This document shows, piece after piece, positions 29,594 through 32,143 of a stretch of DNA of 46,720 nt. Position 1 is the stretch's first letter; each line of letters opens with the position of its first letter. Below the pieces are notes generated by a model. The model did no database searches. It had not been told where the DNA came from and worked only from the letters and a program-made list of their open reading frames with translations. The translations under genes and the position numbers were made by a program. Source of the DNA: Dehalococcoidia bacterium (GTDB lineage Bacteria > Chloroflexota > Dehalococcoidia > DSTF01 > JACRBR01); the NCBI GenBank assembly GCA_021462855.1, contig JAJTXQ010000054.1, forward strand, positions 1-46,720, read 5' to 3'.

Positions 29594-30532
29594 ATGCACC
29601 ACCGGCACATCCTGCACACGATCGGCGCCACGCCGATGCTCGAGCTGAAGCGGCTGTCGCCGAACCCCGGCGTGCGGCTCTTCGCGAAACTCGAAGGCTG
29701 GAACCCGACCGGCTCGATCAAGGACCGCATCGTCAAGCATATGATCCAGCACGCCGAGCGCGACGGCCTGCTCGTGCCCGGCGACACCGTGTACGAGGCG
29801 AGCACCGGCAACACCGGCATCGCGCTGGCGATGGTCGGGCGGGCGATGGGCTACGGCGTGCACATCGTCATGCCGCGCAACGTGTACCCGGAGATCCCGC
29901 GCGCGCTCGCCGTGTACGGCGCCGACGTCACGTGGGTGACGACCGAGGAGGGCGTCACGGGCGCCATGGCGCTCGCGCGGGAGATGGCGGCGCGCCAGCG
30001 GTCGTTCATGCTCGACCAGTTCTGCAACCCGCACAACGCGCGCGCGCACTACGTCTGGACCGGCGCGGAGATCCTCGCCGACGTGCCGGAGGTCGATGTG
30101 CTCGTCGCCGGCCTCGGGACGGGTGGCACGCTCATGGGCACCGGGCAGCGGCTGAAGGAGGCGAACCCGCGCACGAAGGTGATCGCCGTCGAGCCGCACC
30201 CGGGGAACGCGCTGCAGGGGCTGAAGTCACTCGCCGACGGATTCATCCCGCCGATCCTCGACCTGGGGTTCCTCGACGGGAAGATCCTGGTGCGCAGCGG
30301 GCACGCGTTCCGCGCGGCGCGCCTGCTGATGCAGCGCGAGGGCGTGTTCGGGGGCATCAGCGCGGGCGCCGTGCTGCACGCCGGGCTGAAGTTCGCCGAG
30401 CGCATGGACAAGGGCGCTATCGTCATGGTGTTCGCCGACTCCGGGTGGAAGTACCTGGAGACGAACCTCTGGTCCGCGCCGCCGCTCGGCGAGGACGACG
30501 AGGAGAACCTCGACGACATCATCTGGTGGTGA
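29594..30532 (+). CDS. Cysteine synthase family PLP enzyme (CysK/CysM-like)
   Basis: A 312-residue fold-type II PLP enzyme. The Schiff-base lysine is K43 in NPTGSIKDR; the substrate loop is EASTGNTGIALAM; the phosphate-binding loop is GLGTGGTLMGT; and the C-terminal GGISAGAVLHA carries the pyridine-nitrogen Ser region. It should make cysteine from O-acetylserine (or a related acceptor) and sulfide. A more precise sub-family (CysK, CysM or Cbs-like) cannot be fixed from the sequence. The acidic tail (GEDDEENLDDIIWW) is unusual and may serve a partner interaction. Confidence 0.9.
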   Translation: MHHRHILHTIGATPMLELKRLSPNPGVRLFAKLEGWNPTGSIKDRIVKHMIQHAERDGLLVPGDTVYEASTGNTGIALAMVGRAMGYGVHIVMPRNVYPEIPRALAVYGADVTWVTTEEGVTGAMALAREMAARQRSFMLDQFCNPHNARAHYVWTGAEILADVPEVDVLVAGLGTGGTLMGTGQRLKEANPRTKVIAVEPHPGNALQGLKSLADGFIPPILDLGFLDGKILVRSGHAFRAARLLMQREGVFGGISAGAVLHAGLKFAERMDKGAIVMVFADSGWKYLETNLWSAPPLGEDDEENLDDIIWW

Positions 30533-30632: not shown

Positions 30633-31391
30633 CTACTCTCTGGTGCGATCCGTGAGCGGCTCCGTCAGTTCGATGCCGAAGTAGCGGCACAGCTGCCGGA
30701 ACATCTCCTGCTTCGGCGGGCCGGCGGCCTCGAGCGCCAGGTACTCGCGCACGGGCCTGTACGGAGCTTCGCCGCCGCCCGGCGGAATGCGGTCGCGGAC
30801 GACGATCTGACGCCAGTCGTGCACGCGTTGGATGCGCGAGAACGAGCCGATCGCGGCGGCGGCGAATGCCTCGATCGCGCGGTCATCGATCGGCTCGGCG
30901 CCGTTGCCGGTCTGCTCCGCTCCTCGGTGGATGTCCTCAACGGAGCAAGCGCGCGAGCGCGGCGGCTGCTCGGCATCGGCCGCATCGCCGGGCCTGGCGC
31001 CGGGCGCCGGGGTCGTGCTGTCTCCGGCCGCCTCGCCGCCGAGCACGATGCGGTTCATGAGCGAATGGCGCCCGAACGGCAGCGCGACGAACCCGGCGGA
31101 CTCGTTGACGCGTTTCACCAGCGCTCTGCAGGCGTCGCAGTAGAAGCTCGAGTACCTCGAGCCGCTCGGGATGAGTTCGGCGGCGCAGCAGTAGCAGAGC
31201 TCGACGGCGGCGGGGAAATCCCCGGGCGGCGGCGGCAGGTCCGACTCGCGCAGGTGCCATGCAGCCAAGGCGTTGTCGCACTTCCCCCGGGCCGGCTGTT
31301 CGTACAGCGGCCTGCGATCGTCGCCGGTGAGCACGCCGAGGACTTCGGCGCAGCCGGCGCATACACGGAGCTTGTCGGTGCGAAACATCAT
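30633..31391 (-). CDS. Putative zinc-binding protein of unknown function, second gene behind the SAM-type riboswitch
   Basis: A 252-residue protein whose ATG overlaps the upstream stop (ATGA), so translation is coupled. The N-terminal half has paired cysteines: CAGC (about 11-14), CYCC (about 66-69) and a YCDACRALV segment (about 83-91), which may form one or two zinc sites. A low-complexity Ala/Gly/Pro/Asp region (about 120-150) separates this from a C-terminal helical part (FSRIQRVHDWRQIVVRD, MFRQLCRYFGIEL). No catalytic motif is recognised and I do not assign a family. Confidence 0.75.
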   Translation of the reverse strand: MMFRTDKLRVCAGCAEVLGVLTGDDRRPLYEQPARGKCDNALAAWHLRESDLPPPPGDFPAAVELCYCCAAELIPSGSRYSSFYCDACRALVKRVNESAGFVALPFGRHSLMNRIVLGGEAAGDSTTPAPGARPGDAADAEQPPRSRACSVEDIHRGAEQTGNGAEPIDDRAIEAFAAAAIGSFSRIQRVHDWRQIVVRDRIPPGGGEAPYRPVREYLALEAAGPPKQEMFRQLCRYFGIELTEPLTDRTRE

Positions 31392-32005
31392 GCGTACCCC
31401 CTCGCCACGTTCAGCAGATTGGAATCCTCGACGCACGTGTAGCCGAGCGCTTCGAGATCGGCGACGATCTCCTCCTCACGCTCACTGTCGAGCACGAGGA
31501 ACTCGCCGTCGAGGACGCTTGACTCGATGTACCCGTACTTCGCGATGATCTGCGGCGGCATCCACTCGAGCATGATCTGGTTCGGCCACCAGGCCACCGA
31601 CTGCGGTGCGTCATATTCGTTGCCATCGCCGTCCGAGAACGCCGCGATGTCGTCATCGGTCGGCGGGCGTCCCGCGTCGCCGGGGGGCAGGTTTGCGTAC
31701 GCCTGCTCCGCGCTGAGGCCGTCGTAGTCGTCGGGGTGGTAGTCCTCGAGAAACTCCTCGAACGACGCGTAGGACGCGTTCTCGATGAGGTGTGCAGCGA
31801 AGCGCTCGTACGCCGATTCGCTGAACCGGTGGCGGAACTCGCCCCACGTCATCGGAAAGTCCTTGCACGTGGCCAGGTCGAAGTGGAGCTGCGCTTCGGC
31901 GAGCGGCGCGAAGACGAGCGACAATTCGTAGTCCGAGATGCGCCCGTACACGAGGGTCTTCGGCGAATCGGTAGGGGGATCGAGGGGACGTGACTGTTCC
32001 GGCAC
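31388..32005 (-). CDS. Acidic protein of unknown function directly behind the SAM-type riboswitch
   Basis: A 205-residue protein from a GTG at 32005, with a strong AAGGAG site 8 nt upstream. It is rich in Asp/Glu and aromatic residues (LVFAPLAEAQLHFDLATCKDF, MTWGEFRHRFSES, FEEFLEDYHPDDYDG, SVAWWPNQIMLEWMPPQI). No signal peptide, membrane helix or known motif is seen. Third-position G+C is high, so it is a genuine gene. The riboswitch implies regulation by S-adenosylmethionine, but nothing in the protein itself shows a role in methionine or sulfur metabolism. Confidence 0.75.
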   Translation of the reverse strand: MPEQSRPLDPPTDSPKTLVYGRISDYELSLVFAPLAEAQLHFDLATCKDFPMTWGEFRHRFSESAYERFAAHLIENASYASFEEFLEDYHPDDYDGLSAEQAYANLPPGDAGRPPTDDDIAAFSDGDGNEYDAPQSVAWWPNQIMLEWMPPQIIAKYGYIESSVLDGEFLVLDSEREEEIVADLEALGYTCVEDSNLLNVARGYA

Positions 32006-32026
32006 TTGGTTGCTCCTTTCTGAGCC

Positions 32027-32107
32027 GCATCCCCTCGTCGGAGGGATGGCACCTTGGCTGCCGTTGCCAGGTTGCCGGAGCCGCCACGCGCGGCTCTCTC
32101 TTGATGC
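32027..32107 (-). ncRNA. SAM-I-clan riboswitch-like aptamer
   Basis: An 81-nt minus-strand RNA with the conserved SAM-I/SAM-IV core. P1 is GCATC (32103-32107) with GATGC (32027-32031); then AAGAGA; P2 GAGCCGC-GCGTG-GCGGCTC; the invariant CGGCAACC; a P3 arm (CCTGGC/GCCAAGG); AGGTGCCATCC as J3/4; and P4 CCCTC-CGAC-GAGGG. P2 lacks the kink-turn internal loop of classical SAM-I, so a SAM-I/IV variant is most likely. Just after P1 a GCTC-AGAAAG-GAGC hairpin overlaps the AAGGAG site, which suggests control of translation initiation. Confidence 0.75.
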
Positions 32108-32114
32108 TTGTCAC

Positions 32115-32143
32115 AAGGTACCAGAAAGAACCCTCGCAAGCAA
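32115..32143 (-). promoter_or_regulatory. Promoter of the riboswitch-controlled operon
   Basis: TTGCTT (32138-32143), 17-nt spacer, TACCTT (32115-32120); transcription would begin almost exactly at the first base of the aptamer. Confidence 0.5.

Follow-up and report, generated by a model that had tools for sequence, protein, structure and literature searches.

The stretch of DNA analysed here (46,720 nucleotides from contig JAJTXQ010000054.1 of a Dehalococcoidia bacterium; hereafter the window) carries a SAM-I/IV riboswitch that very likely serves as a translational OFF switch over a new family of cysteine-rich proteins. The window encodes a family member of 252 amino acids, and genes of the family are found under SAM-I, SAM-IV and SAM-I/IV riboswitches. 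Our assessment builds on the aptamer and its expression platform, the order of the genes, the recurrent association of the family with riboswitches, and the invariant cysteines of the protein. It applies to the riboswitch and the family, and excludes our proposal on a nucleic-acid-binding role of the protein.

The aptamer occupies 81 nt of the minus strand (32107-32027) and is built as the first-pass annotation had described it: P1 pairs GCATC (32107-32103) with GATGC (32031-32027), stems P2, P3 and P4 are present, and the motifs AAGAG, GGCAACC and AAGGTGCC can be read directly. That annotation had placed the element in the SAM-I clan, and the covariance search that it called for returned a match to RF01725 (SAM-I-IV) at 31996-32112(-), covering the full model (1-99 of 99) with 60.8 bits (E 1e-7) against a gathering cut-off of 41.1 bits. 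This was the sole RF01725 match in the 3.0-Mb genome of the bacterium (E 1.6e-9). In contrast, RF00162 (SAM-I), which like RF00634 (SAM-IV) belongs to the same Rfam clan, scored just 25.7 bits, below its cut-off of 44.4 bits; SAM-I/IV is therefore the correct class. Alignment and fold both present P2 as an uninterrupted stem (GAGCCGC/GCGGCTC), and the absence of an internal loop at this place separates SAM-I/IV from SAM-I and SAM-IV (PMC2864571). The 2010 description of SAM-I/IV riboswitches drew typically on metagenome sequences (Weinberg et al.; PMC2864571), and the window element further resembles these riboswitches in having its Shine-Dalgarno platform on the 3' side; it differs in that its target genes are without known function and that the hairpin arm itself bears the Shine-Dalgarno sequence. 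The core bases AUC, AGAG, CAACC, GGUG and GAU are all retained. The SAM-contacting bases are assigned from the known structure of SAM-I, and the pocket bases AUC, G11, CAACC, GGUG and GAU are kept both in the window and in the SAM-I leaders of the 252-aa family. The ligand of the window riboswitch is most probably SAM.

Directly behind P1 lies the platform hairpin GGCTC-AGAAAG-GAGC (32026-32012, minus strand), which falls within the RF01725 match and recurs at locus L011 of a class relative, G012. A hairpin over the ribosome site had been noticed from the sequence, and it is indeed present: its GCTC and GAGC arms (32025-32022 and 32015-32012) hold the Shine-Dalgarno sequence AAAGGAG (32019-32013, minus strand) between and within them. 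In folding calculations this hairpin coexisted with the aptamer once P1 was imposed. A lower-energy fold of the window RNA (-56.7), which pairs 3' bases of P4 and P1 with early coding sequence, is absent from L011. An anti-sequestor formed by the P2 5' strand and the 5' arm of the Shine-Dalgarno hairpin (GAGCCGC/GCGGCUC) is allowed by the sequence and came out at -44.3 as compared with -52.1 for the aptamer, some 8 kcal/mol worse. For these reasons, neither structure is put forward as the SAM-free fold. A sigma-70 promoter had also been proposed with its +1 at the first base of the aptamer. The candidate, TTGCTT-N17-TACCTT at 32143-32115(-), has the expected position but is weak, matching 6 of 12 consensus bases and failing a consensus promoter scan; in its favour, it aligns with the good promoter TTGACC-17-TAAACT of L011, which stands at a similar distance from the aptamer.

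Two genes follow on the same strand, arranged as originally described. The first starts with GTG at 32005 and encodes an acidic protein of 205 amino acids (31388-32005, minus strand; pI 4.05); the second (30633-31391, minus strand) overlaps it by ATGA and encodes the 252-aa protein with its 10 cysteines. The latter carries CxxC at residues 66-69 and 85-88 and GRHSLMN at 107-113, and so shows the CxxC...CxxC and GRHSxMN-like motifs by which we define the family. In two alignments (A4 and A5), C66, C69, C85 and C88 were invariant across 16-17 rows, W45 and H109 were nearly so, and GRHSxMN was the commonest motif around 107-113; most rows also contain an N-terminal CxxC...CxC pair. An AlphaFold2 model (pLDDT 76.6, pTM 0.74) reached its highest confidence in the C-terminal part, which is helical, and around the second Cys4 site. 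The invariant cysteines suggest that the protein probably binds zinc. A predicted helix comes after its CxxC...CxxC spacing, an arrangement reminiscent of zinc ribbon and treble-clef Cys4 proteins; unlike these, however, the 252-aa protein found no match in Pfam, NCBIfam, PHROG, PADLOC or PDB sequences, nor did its fold by Foldseek (PDB, viral models) or VIA-align. A limited search of open-licence papers found no description of the family. The view that a SAM-I-clan riboswitch precedes genes without known function was borne out.

The relationship between riboswitch and protein emerged most clearly from L011. When relatives within the class were searched with the 252-aa protein, homologues appeared in G012 and G071. 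G012 was also reached independently, through an RF01725 match directly before the same gene. At L011 the riboswitch is followed by the 252-aa homologue itself as the first gene, with no 205-aa gene in between, and the hairpin, Shine-Dalgarno sequence and start (GGAGCAACCAAGTG) of that homologue are those which in the window begin the 205-aa gene. The two 252-aa proteins are 44% identical. Counted from the aptamer up to the start codon, the leaders share 80% of positions (85/106 columns), whereas the flanks agree at 41% upstream and 40% downstream. An 18-row tree groups the window protein with that of L011 (support 99/96).

The family extends beyond this pair. A search with a three-sequence alignment led to L028 (VGBK01000040.1), a homologue from Actinomycetota whose gene stands directly behind a SAM-I riboswitch scoring 67.8 bits. 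A four-sequence alignment then gave 15 matches among 395 genomes of the class of L028, and the phylum at large (396 genomes) contributed three more homologues, L062-L064; two candidates, L043 and L022, were dropped as having no convincing family motif in frame. Homologues are now known in about 20 genomes, scattered sporadically through Chloroflexota and Actinomycetota: within the sets searched, which are samples of their groups, they occurred in 3 of 275 genomes of the window's own class and in 6 of 396 of the phylum of G294. No match was found in phage genomes or viral contigs, and plasmids yielded weak partial matches only (E 0.02 or worse).

Eighteen homologues were found by protein search alone, including that of G071, which has no riboswitch; leaving out G525, which is cut by a contig end, 17 could be assessed. 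Nine of them start directly behind a SAM riboswitch as recognised by Rfam, seven behind SAM-I (L028, identical to L029, and L030, L031, L033, L035, L037, L039) and two behind SAM-IV (L038, L063). Were the chance of this 0.0008 per gene, as we assumed, nine of 17 would correspond to p ~3e-24, a figure that serves as illustration only since the homologues are not independent. Rfam recognised no SAM aptamer at roughly half of the homologues, L027, L032, L034, L036, L041, L062 and L064 among them. The distance from the aptamer 5' end to the start codon was 97-258 nt at the ten loci where it was determined; several gene starts were picked by eye, and neighbouring genes came from a crude custom gene caller. 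Rows with a riboswitch are scattered over several clades of the tree, with different riboswitch classes, and most deep branches are poorly supported. Homologous operons had been named beforehand as the test of the riboswitch assignment, and for the 252-aa gene the outcome was favourable, with SAM riboswitches recurring in front of its homologues. Family members appear to achieve the same control by differing platforms, because at L031, L035 and L037 the P1 3' strand GATGAG shares bases with the Shine-Dalgarno sequence GAGGAG(G), and L028, L030 and L039 have a hairpin of the CCCCTCC...GGAGGGG type between aptamer and start.

The 205-aa protein presents a different picture. Pfam, NCBIfam and PADLOC gave no match and PHROGs a chance-level one alone; phage genomes and viral contigs gave none, and the structure model (pLDDT 44.8) was unusable. 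Searching the whole phylum turned up sparse Chloroflexota homologues (L095-L098, L100), and an Rfam scan of these loci detected no RNA near them, which rules out the 205-aa gene as a conserved partner of the riboswitch. Since its homologues lack the riboswitch and L011 lacks the gene, it looks like a gene that later slipped in behind the riboswitch, ahead of the conserved target, and is now co-controlled, the order of events being our reading of the comparison. Judging by these comparisons, the functional target of the window riboswitch is the 252-aa protein. The original reading of a riboswitch over a two-gene operon is thus corrected in one respect: its conserved partner is the second gene.

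SAM-I, SAM-IV and SAM-I/IV riboswitches generally act as OFF switches. With the Shine-Dalgarno sequence placed inside the hairpin after P1, both in the window and at L011, the arrangement is read most naturally as a translational OFF switch, and by analogy the window riboswitch probably has this polarity. When SAM is plentiful, the aptamer would fold and the hairpin beside P1 would mask the Shine-Dalgarno sequence of the first gene. Less of the 205-aa protein would then be translated, and likewise less of the 252-aa protein, presumably through translational coupling at the ATGA overlap. When SAM is scarce, both proteins would be made.

What the 252-aa protein does is a matter of weighing. The first-pass annotation had assigned the operon a role in methionine, methylation or sulfur balance. 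The response to the SAM level is supported by our results; a part in methionine metabolism is not. A conventional function in methionine, SAM or sulfur metabolism, with the operon serving the methionine cycle through a yet unnamed enzyme, chaperone or regulator, is possible, though we lean against it. It would accord with a survey that assumes, for novel genes controlled by SAM riboswitches in Chloroflexi among others, a part in the metabolism or transport of cysteine or methionine (PMC3766115), with metK behind RF01725 in the class relatives G049 and G091, and with a SAM-I riboswitch (80.9 bits) before an IF-2B-family gene (PF01008), probably mtnA of methionine salvage, elsewhere in the same genome (L072, 447-1597, minus strand). 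A cysteine-synthase-like PALP gene (29594-30532, plus strand) is also convergent with the operon, but in relatives its orthologues stand beside different genes. Against such a function, the homologues are highly divergent and patchily distributed, the family has no enzyme match, no methionine genes were recognised beside its members (most neighbours being judged by eye), and a few members lie in surroundings that resemble mobile elements. We infer that the 252-aa protein is an accessory protein rather than an enzyme of methionine biosynthesis. In G307, integrase-like and DnaG-type primase genes lie near the family member, and the member in G604 (L054, 2499-9142) adjoins an N6 DNA methylase whose mad2-type similarity is weak. 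With the patchy distribution, and with two other SAM-I/IV loci of the window's taxonomic family (in G004) that adjoin integrases, they lend something to the idea of defence or counter-defence of accessory DNA, in which a fall in SAM, caused for instance by a phage SAM-degrading enzyme or by heavy DNA methylation, would release the protein. This idea is nonetheless improbable: neither protein matched PADLOC, no family member occurred in the phages or viral contigs searched, and most homologues sit among ordinary-looking chromosomal genes.

Two further explanations concern the riboswitch itself. The aptamer might sense a ligand other than SAM, as do the spermidine variants of SAM-I, which share the architecture of the window element, offer a precedent for SAM-I relatives with odd targets, and were indeed discovered through such targets (PMC10853860). 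Several SAM-I leaders of the family do have a changed first base in J1/2 (CAGAG or GAGAG). The spermidine variants, however, are altered in J1/2 and in the P3 internal loop, where the window and L011 keep the consensus, with AAGAG, CAACC and GGUG intact; moreover, a polyamine gene would be expected downstream, and the window genes match no known families. We regard a different ligand as very unlikely. Finally, the operon might have come by chance to lie downstream of a decayed leader of a methionine gene, in keeping with the occurrence of the 205-aa gene elsewhere without a riboswitch. This can hardly be credited and was already disfavoured, as the 252-aa family is repeatedly found with three riboswitch classes in two phyla, and the platform and start spacing are conserved.

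Returning to the accessory protein that we favour, our tentative guess is that it binds nucleic acids, or acts as a regulator, on accessory or mobile DNA in response to a shortage of methyl donor. This is kept as a guess because neighbours such as those in G307 and G604 occur at a minority of loci. More speculative and rather doubtful is the general form of the idea, a zinc-binding accessory family under three SAM riboswitch classes in two phyla that acts when methyl donor runs short, for example by guarding or regulating accessory DNA. If true, SAM riboswitches would be used outside metabolism and, together with a second small family described below, would point to a SAM-sensing layer of accessory genes. 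A riboswitch reveals what signal a gene without known function answers to. As riboswitches of several classes couple this one family to the SAM level in bacteria that are far apart, the link is hard to dismiss, and it gives an experimental handle on a protein unrecognised by the databases searched. Should the 252-aa protein act outside methionine metabolism, the known purpose of SAM riboswitches would be widened.

Several other SAM riboswitch loci came to light. Members of the second small family, which are 74-83 amino acids long and share the motif ADGNxxRR...WGG, stand behind SAM-I in the window's own genome and behind SAM-I/IV riboswitches at two loci of G004 and one of G001 (L073, 2035-2256, plus strand; L018, 5799-6041; L015, 6318-6551; L017, 3167-3418); the family had no match in Pfam and none in viral contigs. 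Both SAM-I/IV loci of G004, L015 and L018, adjoin phage-type integrases, and one gene at L015 additionally encodes an NrS-1 polymerase domain, which suggests that SAM riboswitches occur on integrative elements. The window's own genome further has SAM-I (73.7 bits) directly before an orphan 112-aa cysteine-rich ORF (L073, 1613-1948, plus strand), whose Shine-Dalgarno sequence GAGGAGG overlaps the P1 3' strand. Another SAM-I riboswitch of that genome (52.2 bits) precedes an orphan ORF of 66 aa, beyond which lies a gene for a universal stress protein (L074, 428-1606, minus strand). In G604 (L040), the family gene is itself followed closely by a SAM-I aptamer, which precedes a pair of AAA ATPase and VWA-metallopeptidase genes. 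The leaders of L031, L035, L040, L073, L074, L015 and L018 have CAGAG in place of AAGAG in J1/2, and often CACGGTG in place of CAAGGTG.
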